From positions 1-64,000 of the forward strand of contig CANGEV010000014.1 in NCBI GenBank assembly GCA_947452995.1: a DNA stretch of 64,000 nt. Direction: 5' to 3'. Positions 6,571-14,071 of the stretch are shown piece by piece. Under the pieces are notes generated by a model. It had not been told where the DNA came from and ran no database searches. It was given only the letters and a program-made list of their open reading frames with translations. Made by a program: the position numbers and the translations under genes. The DNA comes from Chitinophagales bacterium. GTDB lineage: Bacteria; Bacteroidota; Bacteroidia; Chitinophagales; CAIODY01. Positions within the stretch are counted from its first letter, which is position 1, and the number at the start of each line of letters is the position of its first letter.

Positions 6571-6609
6571 CAAAAAAGAAAAAGCGTCCTCCCTTTCGAG
6601 AAGACGCTT
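6571..6609 (-). terminator. Terminator of the heme-uptake operon
   Basis: Arms aagcgtc (6582-6588) and gacgctt (6603-6609) with further partial pairing inside; on the minus strand the hairpin is followed by tttttcttttttg. It lies 24 bases after the T9SS HmuY-like stop and directly upstream of the radical SAM promoter box. Confidence 0.75.
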
Positions 6610-6632
6610 CGTTTTTGTCAACATCAAGCCTC

Positions 6633-7856
6633 CTAGTTCTTGATGAAACGAGTTGCCGTACCTTTATCTACTTGAACAAAATATATTCCATTCGCTAATT
6701 CACTTACGTCTACTGCATTTACAATTGACGCTGCCGCTTGTGTTTTAACTATTTGCCCTACTTGATTCAAGATCGTAATTTGACGTGCATTTTCTGCGTG
6801 TACCACATTAATCGTATTAGTAGCCAATGTAGGATATAGATAACAATTAGCAGTTTGGATAGTGTTCATACCAATATTGGTGAGCACTTGTTCTTTAGAG
6901 AATTTAATTTTGCCATTCGAACTACCGCCGAAGCCAGTAAAGATTACTTTCCAAATTGCATTATTTCTGTCTTGTACAAAATATACAGTTGAATCAGCTA
7001 ATACCCATGAATTCGTATTCATATCGAAGCTTTTCCATTCATACCCAATTGTATTAATAAGATGATTGAAATTAGCTGGATTATACGTCATCGTAGCAGT
7101 ATCTACTGGATAAACCTTTTGTGCAAGTACACCTTCATTTTGAAGAACTCCGACCACTTTATATGGAATTGGAGTAACTGCGAAATATTGTTGGAAAGCG
7201 AGATCCCATGTTGTTTTTAGAGGTTCGCGTGTTAAGGCTGAATCCGCAGCAATTGAATAATAGCCAAAATTTTGATTGGTATAATTTGCCTTGTTCACCA
7301 TTGCATCAACTTGGTTAGTCCCATCCAAATTAGCATAGCTAAACAAGTACATTCCGCCTGCTAGTGCATGAATCCAAAGTTTCTTTACCGTGCCATTGCC
7401 TAATTGCAAGAAGTAGAGTGAATCGCCTACAACAGCGTGTGTGTTCATATCATAAACACCCCATCCTAAATCAAAAGGATTCGATAAATCAATACCCTGG
7501 TTAAATGCACCACGACGCCATGAAGTGTCTGAATTTAAACACTGATTCATTGGAGTCATCAAGCCTGCTGTATCGGCAGCTGTGATAGTCGACCAATGCG
7601 TAGTATCCTTTTGTGCGTTGAACAGTTTCGTATTATTTTTTCCATTCACATAAATAGCAGCTTCAAAGCCACTTACTTGAAAAGCCAATTCCCAATTCGA
7701 GTTGCTAACGGATGAAACTTTTGAAGAAGACAAGTCATAAAAAATCTGGTTGCTATACCCTGGATTAATGACTACTGAATCATTTGCGCGTGTTTGTGCA
7801 AATACAGTGCTGCCGATAGTTAAGGCAGCAAAGAATGAGAGTAAACCTTTTTTCAT
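6633..7856 (-). CDS. HmuY-like protein with T9SS sorting domain
   Basis: 407 residues. Signal peptide (1-20, ending STVFAQ), two HmuY-like half domains, and a C-terminal type A T9SS sorting domain (about 335-407, YLYPTLATNTINVVHAEN to GIYFVQVDKGTATRFIKN). The body resembles the lipoprotein encoded just upstream along its length: both carry an FY(N/D)-x-W/G-x-LAF opening, an AIY(L/V)NG strand and a closing GY-W-K-(Y/S)-(Y/F)-D segment with a YF(I/V)Q strand. Inferred: a secreted or surface-attached heme- or iron-chelate binder. Third gene of the receptor operon, 4 bases after the HmuY gene. Heme ligands are not certain. Confidence 0.75.
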   Translation of the reverse strand: MKKGLLSFFAALTIGSTVFAQTRANDSVVINPGYSNQIFYDLSSSKVSSVSNSNWELAFQVSGFEAAIYVNGKNNTKLFNAQKDTTHWSTITAADTAGLMTPMNQCLNSDTSWRRGAFNQGIDLSNPFDLGWGVYDMNTHAVVGDSLYFLQLGNGTVKKLWIHALAGGMYLFSYANLDGTNQVDAMVNKANYTNQNFGYYSIAADSALTREPLKTTWDLAFQQYFAVTPIPYKVVGVLQNEGVLAQKVYPVDTATMTYNPANFNHLINTIGYEWKSFDMNTNSWVLADSTVYFVQDRNNAIWKVIFTGFGGSSNGKIKFSKEQVLTNIGMNTIQTANCYLYPTLATNTINVVHAENARQITILNQVGQIVKTQAAASIVNAVDVSELANGIYFVQVDKGTATRFIKN

Positions 7857-7860
7857 ATAA

Positions 7861-8850
7861 TTACAATTTTTGTTGTTCTAAAGAGATTGTACCTTTCGTT
7901 CCTTTATTATCGTAGAAATCGAGGATTCGCATTTTATAAATCAAGCCATTTGTACATTGAATGAAATAATATTGATCGGGACGAATCACGTATTTATTTG
8001 CATTGAAATCATAATATTTCCAATCATAGCCTGGTATATCTGCTCGATCAGACATCCCCACTTGCAAGGCATACCTAGCATCTGCTTCCGTGAAGGCTTT
8101 ATAATTAATCATCCCTTTCCGCATTTCTTGACCGCGTACGCCCTTCCAAATATTCAAAACACCTCCTACAACTGCATAGTTTCGATACGGTGTATTCCAA
8201 GGTTGCTCTTCAAAGGTGGTTGTATAACGGGTGAAGCAGATGTCCCAGTCTTTTGATTTCGGAGCCGGATAGACTAAGCCTTTTGTATCGAAGGAATAAT
8301 ACATCAAGGAATAACTTGTATCTCTAGGTATGCGAGCTGTATTAATTTGTACGCTATCGTACCATTGCCATTCCAATTCAAAAGCGGTACCACTTACACT
8401 TTTCAATCGAAATTTAACGATGCGTTTAGCGGCCGTGGAATAGGATTTACCACGATCTAATAACATTATCTCGCGGGTAGTAAAATCAGTGCCGAAAGCG
8501 AGAGAATCGCTCTGCAAGCCATCTCCATCTGCTAACCAATGATGAGCATTCGTTGTATCGGCAGATGTAAAACTAGTGTCAGTGCTATGTTGTAGTAATT
8601 CTATTCGAGCTCCGTTAAGATAAATCGCGTTAAATTTCGTTGCGAAGCCAAGGTCATAAATTCGATTATCAGACGTAGTTATTTTTCCGGTAGCGATGTT
8701 ATAAAATTCTTGCACATCGTATGTGCTTCCTAGCACTCCGCTTGCGACGCTAAGATTCCCATTAGTAGGTGGTAGAACAATTGCTTGATCTTTTTTTAAA
8801 CAAGCACTTAACGAGCAGAACAATGTCGCTATAAATAAATATTTTCTCAT
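7861..8850 (-). CDS. HmuY-family lipoprotein
   Basis: 329 residues. Lipobox LFCSLSAC with Cys at 17. The mature chain has the HmuY pattern: YDVQEFYNIATGKI, a DLGFATKFNAIYLNG strand, then DWDICFTRYTTTFEEQPWNTP, GYDWKYYDFNANKYVI, DQYYFIQCTNGLIYKMRILDFY near the C-terminus. HmuY proteins bind heme at the cell surface and pass it to a TonB receptor. A His pair in NAHHW (about 96-97) is a ligand candidate. The start codon overlaps the receptor stop (ATGA at 8847-8850), showing translational coupling. Confidence 0.82.
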   Translation of the reverse strand: MRKYLFIATLFCSLSACLKKDQAIVLPPTNGNLSVASGVLGSTYDVQEFYNIATGKITTSDNRIYDLGFATKFNAIYLNGARIELLQHSTDTSFTSADTTNAHHWLADGDGLQSDSLAFGTDFTTREIMLLDRGKSYSTAAKRIVKFRLKSVSGTAFELEWQWYDSVQINTARIPRDTSYSLMYYSFDTKGLVYPAPKSKDWDICFTRYTTTFEEQPWNTPYRNYAVVGGVLNIWKGVRGQEMRKGMINYKAFTEADARYALQVGMSDRADIPGYDWKYYDFNANKYVIRPDQYYFIQCTNGLIYKMRILDFYDNKGTKGTISLEQQKL

Positions 8851-10916
8851 TTATTTTGCCAGTTATAGGTTAAACGAATAAAGGCGGTACGACCCGTTGC
8901 TATCAAAGCAGAATTGCCCGAGTTATGTATCGAAGCGGTGTTTACACCCGACAAATTCATACTTTGCACATTCAACATATTCTTCGCACCGATACTGACA
9001 TTAAATTTGCCACGATGAAAAGATTTATTAATACTTGCATCCAACCAATGATAAGCAGGACGTACTTGTGCATCAACCATTCCATTTGTACTAGAGAAAA
9101 AGTATTGCTTACCTGTTATTTTATAATCAACCGCAGCAACTAAATTTATACGCGAAATTTTATAGGTAAGATTGCTACTAAGTTCCCATTGATTTTGCCA
9201 GGGTAATGCGTTCTCCGTACTAAAAGTATTCTGCACTTTAGTATAATTAACTCCAATACGCGTAGTAACTATTGCACTTGAAAAATCGATATTTAGTGCG
9301 GCTCCTGCATTTCGAATCTGTTGCATATTGAAATAAGAATACAACAGCAAGTTATTTTGATCTTGCGTTAAAGTAATAGCATTTTGGATCTGCGTTCCAA
9401 AGAACCGTGCTTCGACACCAAAAGCATCTTTACTAGTCAAACGTCCTGTCCAATTATATTGCAAGGCAATGGTCTTCGCTAGCTCAGCTTTCAGGTTAGG
9501 ATTACCAACCAAATCATGATTGATATCAACGAAATATAAATAACGTTCCTTAATAGAAGGTGCGCGATACGCTTCTGCCACTTGAAAATTCAAATGATGA
9601 TTTTCATTTACATAATAATCCACCACCATTGCCGGAGTGGTAGCGGAACCATAATCGGTGGCTTGCGTTGCACGAATCATCGGCGAGAAGCGCCATTTTT
9701 TGTTTGCTTGTAAAATGAGAGCTGCGAAAACACCATTGTTAAAATAGTTCTTATTGCCTGCGTTGACGCGCTTGCCGGCAGCAGATTCAGCCAGACATTC
9801 ATCACCCAACATCCAACTCCATTTTTGATTCGCACTAACACCCGAAAACCTAATCTGTAAAGCATTTTCATGTAATAAAGTCGTATCCTGCAAACTCGCG
9901 TCAGCAGCGATTTCCTTTTGCAAGCTAAGCATATCCTTACGATAGGTTGTTTTGATACGTAGATAGTCATTCTTGTAGGCGCGTATCCATAATTGGCGAC
10001 GAGGTTTTAACTTGATATCAGCCCAAGCGGTATGCTGCATGCGCAACGTGTGATGATATTCGTCGAATGCATAGGCGGTATAAGGTGTAATTTGCGTTTC
10101 ACCTAAATTATATATCCAATCAGATAGATAATTACCACTCAAACCGGCACTTAATTTCTCATTGACATATTTTATAGAAGCGGTTCCTGAATAGGTTTCA
10201 CGCGGTTTCCAAAGTTGATGACGCGAGGTATCTTTCGGCGACCAGCCGTCAAAGAAATTTCTACCGGCACTTATATCGAGCGTAAGATTTTTGTGATTGT
10301 GTTGTACAGAGCCCTGTACCTGATAATTAGCTATTGGATCATAATAGGTATTGAAAGAGCCACTCCATGGGCTTTTCAACTTGTTACCTGTGATAATATT
10401 AATAACGCCTCCTATTGCATCTGCACCATACAAAATGCTCATTGGCCCTTTAACAATTTCGATACGCTCAACATTTTGTAATGGAAGCTGATTCATATCG
10501 ACGAAGCCGTTCATTCTACCTAAAATCGGAACACCGTCGATCAATACTTTAACATATTGCCCTCCCAAGCCATTGATACTTAAGTTAGCGCCCAAGGTCG
10601 GATCTTGCGTAACTTGCAGGCCGTTCATTCTACTTAATAACTGCCCCATATCCGCAGCGGAAGAACGTTGAATAATCGCCTTATTAATAATCTGTGGCTT
10701 GATAATATCAATCTTAGAGAGGCTACTAATACGACTTGTTACAGAAACCGTATTCAAATCCTGACCGTAAAATTTTACGTACACCTTTGCAGTGTCAATT
10801 CGATTGCTATCCACTACGATTCGAAAACCGCTCCTGTGAGAAGAAGAGTTACCTTGGGCCACTGCTGACCCAAGGCCTACTGTTATCGCTAAAACAAACA
10901 GAATTACTTTCTTCAC
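8847..10916 (-). CDS. TonB-dependent outer-membrane receptor (HmuR-like)
   Basis: About 689 residues from a GTG at 10916: VKKVILFVLAITVGLGSAVAQ is a clean signal peptide, whereas the longer frame from 10994 adds a poor 26-residue leader. Plug domain about 70-180 (LLSRMNGLQVTQDP, LIDGVPILGRM, VERIEIVKGPMSILYG, GGVINII), then a 22-strand type barrel ending TGRTAFIRLTYNW. Energy comes from TonB-ExbBD, not encoded here. The coupled HmuY gene makes heme or another metal-porphyrin the likely substrate. No N-terminal carboxypeptidase-regulatory domain is present. Confidence 0.9.
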   Translation of the reverse strand: MKKVILFVLAITVGLGSAVAQGNSSSHRSGFRIVVDSNRIDTAKVYVKFYGQDLNTVSVTSRISSLSKIDIIKPQIINKAIIQRSSAADMGQLLSRMNGLQVTQDPTLGANLSINGLGGQYVKVLIDGVPILGRMNGFVDMNQLPLQNVERIEIVKGPMSILYGADAIGGVINIITGNKLKSPWSGSFNTYYDPIANYQVQGSVQHNHKNLTLDISAGRNFFDGWSPKDTSRHQLWKPRETYSGTASIKYVNEKLSAGLSGNYLSDWIYNLGETQITPYTAYAFDEYHHTLRMQHTAWADIKLKPRRQLWIRAYKNDYLRIKTTYRKDMLSLQKEIAADASLQDTTLLHENALQIRFSGVSANQKWSWMLGDECLAESAAGKRVNAGNKNYFNNGVFAALILQANKKWRFSPMIRATQATDYGSATTPAMVVDYYVNENHHLNFQVAEAYRAPSIKERYLYFVDINHDLVGNPNLKAELAKTIALQYNWTGRLTSKDAFGVEARFFGTQIQNAITLTQDQNNLLLYSYFNMQQIRNAGAALNIDFSSAIVTTRIGVNYTKVQNTFSTENALPWQNQWELSSNLTYKISRINLVAAVDYKITGKQYFFSSTNGMVDAQVRPAYHWLDASINKSFHRGKFNVSIGAKNMLNVQSMNLSGVNTASIHNSGNSALIATGRTAFIRLTYNWQNK

Positions 10917-11065
10917 GAATGCAAAGGAAAGATGAAAATAAACGAATGAATTATGAAAACAGAAAATGTACTTATCCTTTCGGGAAAAATTCAATGGATG
11001 AATTATCTTATGTTGAAGAAATCAAAGAATCATTCATTATCTTGTTATACAAATACCACCTTTCT

Positions 11066-14000
11066 ATGAAACGTCTTTTATCAGGAGTAGTTATTATACT
11101 TCTTTTACAGTGTCATTTCTCTGCGAGAGCAATCAATTATATCAGTAATCCACAAGCTTTCGTCAATCCGTTTATAGGAACAGGCGGACACGGACATACT
11201 TTCCCTGGTGCCACTGCACCCTTTGGAATGGTACAACTATCTCCGGATACGCGTATAGACGGCTCATGGGACGGTTGTGGTGGTTATCATTATGATGATA
11301 AAACAATTTATGGATTCAGTCATACTCACCTCTCCGGTACAGGCTGTAGTGACTATGGCGACATCGCTTTTCTACCTTACCTAAATTCAGAATACGAAAA
11401 GCTTAACCCTAAACAAAAACCAAGTTTAGCATTAGACCATACATTAGAAGATGCAAAAGCGGGTTACTATCATATTGGTTTTGAAAAATTGGCTTGTTCA
11501 GTAGAGTTAACTGCTACCGAACGTTGTGGTATGCAACAATATACATTCAACAAGGAAGAAGATATTGTAATTCTACTTTTATTAGATCATCGCGATGTTC
11601 AGCTAGAAGGTAAAATTGTTGAGGAAAGTAGGACACATATTTTAGGAATGCGTCGTTCAAAAGCATGGGCAGAAGATCAGCATGCGTATTTTGATACTAA
11701 ATTTTCAGTCCCTTTTACCAAAGCAGAATATCGAAGCAACGGATCTGGCACAACGCTAGGCATTTTTCATTTTCATGTTACAAAAGGTCAACATATTACG
11801 ATAAGCACTGGTATATCTTGTGTAGATGAAAAAGGAGCTTTGCAAAATAGAGAAGCTGAAATGGCGGAATACAAAGACTTTGCAGGCATTCTTAAATCAA
11901 CTCAACAAAAATGGAATGACCAATTAGGAAAAATTCAAATTGAAGTCGATAAGCAAAAAGGAACTTCGATAGATAATATCGACCAGGCCATTGTCTTTTA
12001 CACCGCTTTATACCACGCTTGCGTGCACCCTTCTTTAGCAAGTGATGTCGACAATCGTTATCGCGGTCGTGATAATAAGATACATACTACCGAAGGTAAG
12101 TTTAAGTACTATAGTGTTTTCTCACTTTGGGATACCTACCGTGGTCTGCATCCTCTCCTAACAATCATAGACCAAAAACATACAAACGATTTTATTAATA
12201 CGTTTTTATGCCAATACCAGCAAGGAGGCTTGCTGCCTGTTTGGGAATTAAGTAGCAATGAAACGAATTGTATGATTGGATATCATTGTGTACCTGTGAT
12301 TTGGGATGCTGTAAATAAAGGCATTCACGACTTCGACATGAAACTCGCACTTGAGGCGATGTTAGCTAGTGCGAATCAAAATCAAAAAGGCCTTGAAGAA
12401 TACCGTAAAGACGGTTTTGTGCACTCGGAGACAGAACACGAAAGCGTTTCGAAAACATTAGAGTATGCGTATGATGATTGGTGTATCGCACGTATGGCAG
12501 AACGTTTAGGTGAAAAGACAACAGCCAAAGAAATGTATAAACGTTCTCTCGGCTGGAAAAATTTACACGATACCTTAACAGGGTTTCTACGTGCTCGTCG
12601 CAATGGCGGTTTCATCGAGCCATTCGTGCCGGCGCAAGTCGATCAAAACTATACGGAGGCGAATGCTTGGCAGTATTGTTTTGCGCAAGCGCGATTCCTG
12701 CAGAAAACGTATGGTACTAATGACCAAGCATTACTTGAAAAAATGTTCTTGGCCAACAGCGCGTTGGAGGGTCGTCAGCAAGCAGATATCACAGGATTGA
12801 TTGGTCAGTATGCACAAGGGAATGAACCTTCCCATCATATTATTTATCTGTTAGAGAACGATCGCTTGCGTAATGAATATCTGTCGCAGGTGATGAATAA
12901 TTTCTACCTCAACAAACCCGATGGTTTGATAGGCAATGAAGACTGCGGACAAATGTCAGCGTGGTATGTACTCTCCGCAATGGGCTTCTATCCGGCGATT
13001 CCGGGCGATGAAATGGAAATCGCATATCGTATCGGCGTTCCATTATTCAAGCATGTATGTATACATTTCGAAAATAATCGCTCCCTTACTTTAACAAATG
13101 ACGTGGCTGAACAAGCAGGAGCTTACGATATCGAAGGCGCTTCATTCCCTGGTTATTTGAGCCATATCACCATGATGAGCACACCTGAATTGCATTGGAC
13201 AAAAAAGCCATTCGGCAATACGAAACTTCAATTCAATAGTTATAGAAATAATTTATTTAGAAGCTGCATAGAAAAGTATTGTGTTGCGCCAGTTATTCGT
13301 GCCGATAGAATTTCCTTTAGCGGTAAGTTGAAAGTTCGTGTGACACCTTACCCGAACCTTACGAAGAACGAAACTTATACCAGTATATTGTTCACGGATC
13401 CAAGCAAACCAAATGCAGCACCAGCTTATACAATGATCAGCGATACGAGTACCATTCTAACAATCACAGAAAGCTGTAGTGTAGAAGCTTATACCAAGGC
13501 TGAAACGATTATTTATGAAAATGGATATAATGGCGATCCTAAACATTCAATGCTTGGCTACCTTCCTACAACGACAGTTGCTGCAAAATATGTAGCCTTA
13601 CCTGCTGGTAGAAGTATTAAAAATCTAAGCCAATATGATAATCAATACACTGCTGGTGGTCCGGAGGGTATGATAGATTTATTACGTGGCCAGAAAGATT
13701 GGCGTATTGGTGGATGGCAAGGTTATCATGGCAAAGATTTCATGGCGTTGGTGGATTTAGGCAGTGTACAAAAAGTGAAGCGACTTGGATTAGGCTGCAT
13801 TCAAGAATCGAAGCCATGGATTATGATGCCGAAGGAGATTGTATTTGAGGTGAGTGCAGACGGTATTAATTATCATGCATTAAAAACAATTACACCGAAA
13901 GAAGATGCGCATGCAGAAGAAGCAATCGTAAAGGATTTATATACCGACTGTCAAGAAGAGGTCCGTTATATCCGCGTGAAAGCCTTACGCTATGGCGCTT

Positions 14001-14071
14001 TGCCGGAGTTGCATATTAGTGCCGGAGAAGAAAGCTGGTTATTTGTGGATGAAATTTTAATCGAGGAATAG
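11066..14071 (+). CDS. GH92 alpha-mannosidase with C-terminal discoidin-like domain
   Basis: 1,001 residues from the ATG at 11066, which opens a signal peptide (MKRLLSGVVIILLLQCHFSARA). GH92 hallmarks: NPFIGTGGHGHTFPGATAPF near 34, GFSHTHLSGTGC, SLWDTYRGLHPLL, SVSKTLEYAYDDWCIARM, and GNEDCGQMSAWYVLSAMGFY near 640. GH92 enzymes are calcium-dependent exo-mannosidases cutting N-glycan or yeast mannan linkages. After the catalytic part comes an F5/8-type C-like domain (about 860-1000; DFMALVDLGSVQKVKRL, EIVFEVSADGINYH), probably carbohydrate-binding. The reading frame continues upstream to 10736 but that part covers the divergent receptor gene and is not coding. Divergent from the heme operon; GNAT gene follows by 2 bases. 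Confidence 0.9.
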   Translation: MKRLLSGVVIILLLQCHFSARAINYISNPQAFVNPFIGTGGHGHTFPGATAPFGMVQLSPDTRIDGSWDGCGGYHYDDKTIYGFSHTHLSGTGCSDYGDIAFLPYLNSEYEKLNPKQKPSLALDHTLEDAKAGYYHIGFEKLACSVELTATERCGMQQYTFNKEEDIVILLLLDHRDVQLEGKIVEESRTHILGMRRSKAWAEDQHAYFDTKFSVPFTKAEYRSNGSGTTLGIFHFHVTKGQHITISTGISCVDEKGALQNREAEMAEYKDFAGILKSTQQKWNDQLGKIQIEVDKQKGTSIDNIDQAIVFYTALYHACVHPSLASDVDNRYRGRDNKIHTTEGKFKYYSVFSLWDTYRGLHPLLTIIDQKHTNDFINTFLCQYQQGGLLPVWELSSNETNCMIGYHCVPVIWDAVNKGIHDFDMKLALEAMLASANQNQKGLEEYRKDGFVHSETEHESVSKTLEYAYDDWCIARMAERLGEKTTAKEMYKRSLGWKNLHDTLTGFLRARRNGGFIEPFVPAQVDQNYTEANAWQYCFAQARFLQKTYGTNDQALLEKMFLANSALEGRQQADITGLIGQYAQGNEPSHHIIYLLENDRLRNEYLSQVMNNFYLNKPDGLIGNEDCGQMSAWYVLSAMGFYPAIPGDEMEIAYRIGVPLFKHVCIHFENNRSLTLTNDVAEQAGAYDIEGASFPGYLSHITMMSTPELHWTKKPFGNTKLQFNSYRNNLFRSCIEKYCVAPVIRADRISFSGKLKVRVTPYPNLTKNETYTSILFTDPSKPNAAPAYTMISDTSTILTITESCSVEAYTKAETIIYENGYNGDPKHSMLGYLPTTTVAAKYVALPAGRSIKNLSQYDNQYTAGGPEGMIDLLRGQKDWRIGGWQGYHGKDFMALVDLGSVQKVKRLGLGCIQESKPWIMMPKEIVFEVSADGINYHALKTITPKEDAHAEEAIVKDLYTDCQEEVRYIRVKALRYGALPELHISAGEESWLFVDEILIEE

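Follow-up and report, generated by a model that had tools for sequence, protein, structure and literature searches.

A three-gene operon is described here that lies on the minus strand of a contig from a Chitinophagales bacterium (NCBI GenBank assembly GCA_947452995.1, contig CANGEV010000014.1, positions 1 to 64,000; this whole stretch of 64,000 nucleotides is referred to as the window). It encodes a TonB-dependent outer-membrane receptor, a HmuY-family lipoprotein and a second HmuY-family protein that ends in a sorting domain of the type IX secretion system (T9SS) and is called the T9SS binder below. The operon is likely to scavenge heme, from capture through loading of the receptor to use as a cofactor, for an aerobic-type member of the Bacteroidota that is probably unable to make heme. 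Heme appears to be the likeliest ligand from a conserved receptor histidine and from runs of HmuT, HmuU, HmuV and HemS genes in related loci. A more specific reading is offered tentatively, at somewhat less than an even chance: a two-stage hemophore system, from T9SS HmuY to lipoprotein HmuY to receptor, in environmental Bacteroidota without heme synthesis. As part of that reading, the wiring would follow the fate of heme, with HmuTUV and HemS present where heme is degraded for iron and absent where whole heme is the nutrient.

Receptor motif

The window receptor carries the heme-receptor motif YRAP...NH...NPNL (YRAPSIKERYLYFVDINHDLVGNPNL), and so has the FRAP and NPNL motifs of the HemR type with a histidine between them. 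According to the available text of PMC6449446, heme receptors share conserved FRAP and NPNL motifs together with two histidines, and other receptors do not conserve these histidines. The alignment column of His467 holds histidine in 103 of 105 linked receptors. Another histidine column (49 of the 105), a possible counterpart of HemR His128, holds isoleucine in the window receptor. A contig search with the receptor alone as query found no relative.

Predicted folds, repeats and ancestry of the binders

Structure models were built from alignments of relatives with 40 rows (T9SS binder) and 36 rows (lipoprotein). The predicted local distance difference test score (pLDDT) and predicted template-modelling score (pTM) were 90.6 and 0.75 for the T9SS binder and 87.4 and 0.80 for the lipoprotein. 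With VIA-align, the T9SS-binder model best matched PinO (Z 13.9, 3.5 Å, 144 residues aligned) and HmuY (Z 13.3, 2.9 Å, 132), followed by five HmuY-family chains (Z 12.0–12.9) and BfrC (Z 10.7). The lipoprotein model also matched PinO (Z 15.4, 6.1 Å, 161 aligned) and HmuY (Z 14.6, 2.8 Å, 139), followed by five family chains (Z 13.2–14.3) and then an unrelated structure (Z 4.9); BfrC was not listed. Whole-model searches in Foldseek placed HmuY-family chains near the top with weak matches (best E 6.4e-4 for the T9SS binder and 1.3e-5 for the lipoprotein; low TM-scores), so the assignment of both predicted folds is based on VIA-align and on sequence profiles. The preliminary description of this DNA had proposed the HmuY kinship of both proteins and structure prediction as its check; the models bear it out, as their best matches are HmuY-family chains. 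The two objections foreseen there, a T9SS protein without a HmuY fold and a receptor clearly for another substrate, were not encountered.

Each binder has about 300 residues and two HmuY-type sequence repeats, whereas solved HmuY-family chains have 175–200 residues. The C-terminal repeat by itself matches the HmuY profile almost from end to end and a HmuY chain over its full length, yet VIA-align spreads one solved HmuY chain across both repeats in either model. The repeats may form either two complete HmuY folds or a single composite fold of larger size. Profiles of the halves were compared in single comparisons. Corresponding halves of the two proteins matched with E values of 1.8e-21 (N-terminal) and 2.6e-38 (C-terminal), the N- and C-terminal halves of the T9SS binder with 1.7e-9, the N-terminal half of the T9SS binder and the C-terminal half of the lipoprotein with 1.1e-9, and the reverse pair with 3e-7; the lipoprotein's own halves aligned over 23 columns only. 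In a tree of 40 T9SS-binder and 36 lipoprotein sequences, each kind lay on one side of a branch with support of 100/99 that was present in all 200 bootstrap trees. The pair is therefore old and has not arisen by local duplication, and a recent duplication of the binders at this locus was rejected.

The T9SS binder has a signal peptide, read by eye, and a C-terminal sorting domain above the cut-offs of both PF18962 and TIGR04183 (Table 1), as T9SS type A cargo has. The tail of its model matched the sorting domain of mirolase (VIA-align Z 9.1, 1.6 Å, 66 residues aligned). Its HmuY score is borderline, exactly at the PF14064 cut-off of 27 bits and split over two stretches. His140, in the N-terminal repeat, is kept in 30 of the 40 rows and follows a conserved tryptophan at a distance of a few residues; the HmuY chain has a tryptophan five residues before the histidine counted as His166. 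By this reading His140 would lie near the position of HmuY His166, which may serve as a lead; in Porphyromonas gingivalis HmuY, heme is held by His134 and His166 (available text of PMC9331221). When solved chains were searched with the N-terminal-repeat profile, BfrB (8b6a, E 1.9e-5) came first and the three remaining rows, two of them unrelated, had E values of 0.45 or worse; this gave no clear assignment of the heme ligands.

All 36 aligned lipoproteins share the lipobox cysteine, Cys17. The sequence C-X-K-(D/E)2, which the available text of PMC5080379 describes as optimal for the surface export of lipoproteins in Capnocytophaga canimorsus, occurs exactly in 12 of the 36 (0.16 expected), and the lipoprotein is probably surface-anchored. 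The window lipoprotein has diverged far from its relatives: it is 74% identical to its congener L032, with which it shares a long branch of 1.74, but 19–31% identical to the other 34 aligned sequences.

Gene order in relatives

A sample of 248 genomes of the order was searched, of which 202 were of high quality. The T9SS binder was matched at E 1e-3 in 175 genomes and accepted as the protein itself in 95, at E 1.2e-22 or lower or among four weaker matches (G003, G024, G037 and G050); G125 was excluded because its match is the lipoprotein, and the single-protein query may miss diverged binders. The lipoprotein was counted as present in 69 genomes, at E 2.2e-71 or lower or as a contig-edge match (G051 and G074); weaker HmuY-like proteins in nine genomes (G034, G100, G167, G216, G220, G222, G235, G236 and G242) were not counted. 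The T9SS binder occurred without the lipoprotein in 29 of its 95 genomes, and the lipoprotein without the T9SS binder in three of its 69.

The preliminary description had suggested a search for the same three-gene order in other Bacteroidota, and the three genes do occur together elsewhere. Among 97 T9SS-binder genes surveyed in 101 fetched regions, 35 lie with a receptor and a lipoprotein, 11 with HmuTUV, 13 with a receptor only (plus two at contig ends) and one with a lipoprotein only; 30 stand alone (plus five at contig ends). The commonest order is T9SS binder, receptor, lipoprotein. The order of the window, with the T9SS binder last, was found also in L032 and in a Flavobacteriales metagenome-assembled genome (L175). 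The gap between receptor and lipoprotein is below five bases in 28 of 38 cases, with start codons assigned mechanically. In the loci of named records, some of whose contigs are probably the same as contigs of the 248 genomes, 48 of 51 have a T9SS binder, and 11 have T9SS binder, receptor and lipoprotein strictly consecutively, including two Crocinitomicaceae metagenome-assembled genomes.

The HmuTUV form is seen in Neolewinella and Membranihabitans. In Acidiluteibacter ferrifornacis (L166), the T9SS binder, HmuT, HmuU, HmuV, HemS, the receptor and the lipoprotein stand in a row, and L038 has the same run, again with a HemS+ChuX_HutX protein. The neighbours in L052 are Peripla_BP_2, FecCD, ABC_tran, HemS+ChuX_HutX and a TonB receptor. 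A DUF6607 gene (PF20311, 353.7 bits in L035) turns up repeatedly within or next to heme-type loci (L035:4724-6089, L042:2709-4076, and at L060, L128, L129, L161–L163, L165 and L171), sometimes followed by a small open reading frame of about 140 residues; DUF6607 is a candidate heme-linked family of unknown role.

Host genome and probable loss of heme synthesis

The host genome is 99.96% complete and has two COX1 matches. It gave no match for HemB, ferrochelatase, HemS or FecCD in searches that matched, among 14 control genomes, 11, 9, 1 and 13, respectively. Judged by HemB and ferrochelatase (HemH), the two steps of the synthesis pathway that were covered, the host probably cannot make heme. 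The missing FecCD match leaves it with no apparent FecCD-type permease for the passage of heme across the inner membrane. SprA, the one component by which the T9SS machinery was searched, scored 2507.8 bits in the host and was found in none of the 14 controls. A six-frame search for the HmuY family in the host listed the lipoprotein gene alone, and the lipoprotein-family profile, at E 1e-10, found the two binder genes and nothing else.

COX1 is present in 243 of the 248 genomes and in all 202 of high quality; heme should therefore be needed throughout. Ferrochelatase was above its cut-off in 143 genomes (a match in G007 lay below it and was scored absent) and HemB in 146; both markers were missing in 93. 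They were missing in 53 of 66 two-binder genomes versus 40 of 182 others and, at high quality, in 41 of 49 versus 33 of 153. Genomes with the T9SS binder and no lipoprotein showed no enrichment (10 of 29). The association persisted in tests stratified by family, with a chi-square of 12.2 (p 0.0005) for all genomes and of 7.9 (p 0.005) for those of high quality, and by genus (p 0.005 and 0.004, from few informative strata). In a within-family permutation 15 of 20000 runs reached 53, and with one vote per genus at high quality the counts were 15 of 20 versus 18 of 87. Both binders are present and both markers missing in all three genomes of the window's genus; in the sister genus of the family, all three show the reverse.

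Architecture also separates the genomes: both markers are missing in 31 of 36 with the contiguous three-gene form and in none of 11 with the HmuTUV form (Fisher 2.5e-7), in 10 of 14 with T9SS binder and receptor and in 16 of 29 with the T9SS binder alone. For these counts L051 was moved from the alone class to the three-gene class (map T9-TB-LP, with a long gap), L097 was placed with T9SS binder and receptor, and L038 was kept in the HmuTUV class despite its following lipoprotein. Loci at contig ends or split (L075, L079, L082, L092, L113, L123 and L125) were omitted, and G007, G148 and G196 fall in two classes.

Operon anatomy and surroundings

The coordinates are listed in Table 1. The ATGA overlap between receptor and lipoprotein (8850 versus 8847), read in the preliminary description as translational coupling, was confirmed, and the T9SS-binder gene starts 4 bases past the lipoprotein stop on the same strand, as had been noted. 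A hairpin follows the third gene (z −2.73; 2 of 200 shuffles equally stable). A terminator scan gave four sites in 5.8 kb versus 4.7 expected from shuffles; as this count is not raised, the argument for the hairpin as a terminator is its position, not number. A scan for the sigma-70 consensus only gave seven promoter sites versus 18.1 in shuffles, none directly upstream of the receptor.

Table 1. Features of the operon (Pfam and NCBIfam cut-offs in parentheses)
Feature	Position	Strand	Details
TonB-dependent outer-membrane receptor	8847..10916	−	GTG start at 10916; Plug 84.0 bits (Pfam); His467 column
HmuY-family lipoprotein	7861..8850	−	PF14064 32.1 bits; two HmuY-type sequence repeats; lipobox LSAC (by eye)
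HmuY-family protein, T9SS type A sorting domain	6633..7856	−	PF14064 27.0 bits (27); PF18962 39.6 bits (27); TIGR04183 31.3 bits (23)
T9SS sorting domain, approximate reach residues 340-407	6636..6839	−	PF18962 340-402; TIGR04183 341-406
Terminator-like hairpin 3′ of third gene	6581..6610	−	13 pairs, T-rich tail

The adjacency of hmuY and hmuR seen in the P. gingivalis hmu operon is present. The hmuSTUV genes that follow there are absent downstream, as the preliminary description had stated; for HmuS of the P. gingivalis type this refers to the locus. Downstream on the same strand lie genes for a radical SAM/SPASM protein and then a glycosyltransferase (Pfam). The upstream neighbour is a divergent GH92 glycoside hydrolase gene (10919–14071) that looks unrelated to the operon.

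Proposed mechanism and alternatives

In the proposed mechanism, the T9SS would export a HmuY-like protein to the outer face of the cell or into the medium, where heme would be picked up. A second HmuY-like protein, lipid-anchored beside the receptor and probably surface-exposed, would load the receptor, and the T9SS binder would hand its heme over directly or via the lipoprotein. The TonB-dependent receptor would then bring heme into the periplasm, for use as an oxidase cofactor rather than mainly as a source of iron. Heme binding, surface display, the direction of transfer and the use of whole heme are inferred here. The interpretation in the preliminary description is supported for heme uptake, HmuY kinship and the division into a T9SS-exported and a lipid-anchored protein, which agree with the models, the receptor histidine, the HmuTUV–HemS neighbours and the missing markers. 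The absence of the downstream genes is better explained by host metabolism than by a relay: relatives that retain the markers have an ATP-binding cassette (ABC) transporter together with HemS next to this binder, and the three-gene form is found mostly in genomes that lack the markers.

Several observations weigh against the heme reading or its link with auxotrophy. No His-His or Met-Met pair of the known HmuY type was identified in either binder, and in the 36-row lipoprotein alignment no histidine and, apart from Met1, no methionine is invariant or close to it; some HmuY proteins bind heme without iron ligands (available text of PMC12106395). The window lipoprotein reads C-L-K-K-D, a partial match to the export signal. 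Above the cut-off of no NCBIfam receptor family, the window receptor scored best with the B12 receptor TIGR01779 (124.9 bits, cut-off 599.7) and reached 102.4 bits with the heme/hemoglobin receptor TIGR01785 (cut-off 316.85). The loci encode 13 other TonB receptors, and three of these also show the motif, all three from loci fetched for HmuY-type matches. A marker is retained in 13 of the 66 two-binder genomes, and both markers are missing from 33 high-quality genomes that do not have both binders (21 in family f17, nine in f20 and one each in f3, f21 and f22). The HmuTUV form is nearly confined to f17 (10 of 11), so the architecture contrast is partly ancestry, and the statistical tests correct for membership of a family or genus only. 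G185 has neither marker, although HmuU, HmuV and HemS lie close to its T9SS binder and receptor. Of the 30 high-quality genomes in f17 and f20 with neither marker and not both binders, six belong to one genus, g61.

The two binders might also act in parallel, each feeding the receptor without a relay and perhaps drawing on different sources or forms of heme (free heme, heme proteins). We regard this as a serious possibility, though a doubtful one. It would account for the T9SS binder beside a receptor with no adjoining lipoprotein, in the receptor-only loci and in the HmuTUV form, and for the deep divergence of the two families; the 29 genomes with the T9SS binder and no lipoprotein mean that a hand-over is not obligatory everywhere. 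Against it, the lipoprotein is hardly ever without the T9SS binder and the two often share an operon with the receptor, which suggests joint action.

Ordinary iron acquisition, with heme as an iron source only and the synthesis link a product of ancestry, is considered unlikely. HemS, by name a hemin-degrading family, does occur in the HmuTUV form, and the near-restriction of that form to one family is as this explanation would have it; but the host has two COX1 matches with none for HemB, ferrochelatase or HemS, and the link survives stratification. Least probable, and by some distance from likely, is another ligand such as cobalamin or a metal complex, with the HmuY fold reused. The top-scoring TonB-B12 family, the lack of evident HmuY axial ligands and the host without FecCD and HemS matches are in its favour, but HemS stands in the same gene runs of relatives, the receptor has the histidine motif, and the two-binder set goes with missing heme synthesis. 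Rfam, moreover, gave no family at or above the gathering score in the window, and none of the families that reached it in 15 related regions was a riboswitch. Cobalamin itself, suggested by the TonB-B12 score and ABC-like neighbours, was dropped since a neighbour is HemS and no cobalamin riboswitch reached the gathering score in the window or in the 15 related regions.

Comparison with known systems

No known heme receptor was detected in 60% of 192 genomes of freshwater and marine heme auxotrophs, for which unknown receptors were suggested, in the available text of PMC11139205. The three-gene module, with two putative surface binders of which one would depend on the T9SS, is a concrete candidate for such receptors in one phylum; if the two-stage reading is true, it would count among the so far unrecognised systems by which heme auxotrophs living outside hosts take up heme. 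The same text places most Bacteroidota auxotrophs in Bacteroidales and a minority elsewhere; in the present sample of 248 genomes, which come from another order, both markers are missing from 93. No account of the combined T9SS-HmuY, receptor and lipoprotein-HmuY set, or of its link with auxotrophy, was met in the literature covered, which leaves subscription journals and preprints mostly outside, and none of HmuY with Saprospiraceae was found.

A HmuY protein with a T9SS tail has been published before: C6N29_01035 of Flavobacterium columnare combines a HmuY domain with Por_Secre_tail and is T9SS-secreted according to its authors; in the available text its deletion gave no growth defect in their media, and no lipoprotein partner is mentioned (PMC9618737, the one paper found that names both HmuY and Por_Secre_tail). 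In P. gingivalis, HBP35 is a different T9SS-exported heme-binding protein, with thioredoxin activity by a cited title, and is likened here by description only (available text of PMC10202324). Porphyromonas species, which are host-associated, have two or three HmuY homologues per genome, and according to a figure legend some of their hmu loci include a gene for a protein with a T9SS tail, which the accessible text does not call HmuY (PMC12106395). The small hfpR-1813-hfpY operon of F. psychrophilum also joins a receptor to a heme-binding HmuY protein, HfpY, without hmuSTUV; as far as the available text goes, it has one HmuY-like gene and a middle gene of unknown function (PMC9331221), whereas two binders are encoded here. 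A close parallel in arrangement is HmuY/HmuR of P. gingivalis (hmuYRSTUV), in which a surface binder of the same HmuY fold likewise lies beside a TonB-dependent heme receptor. There, in the sources available, a single, shorter HmuY lipoprotein is followed by hmuSTUV; the present operon has two binders of two repeats each, one of them T9SS-tailed, and no further transport genes.

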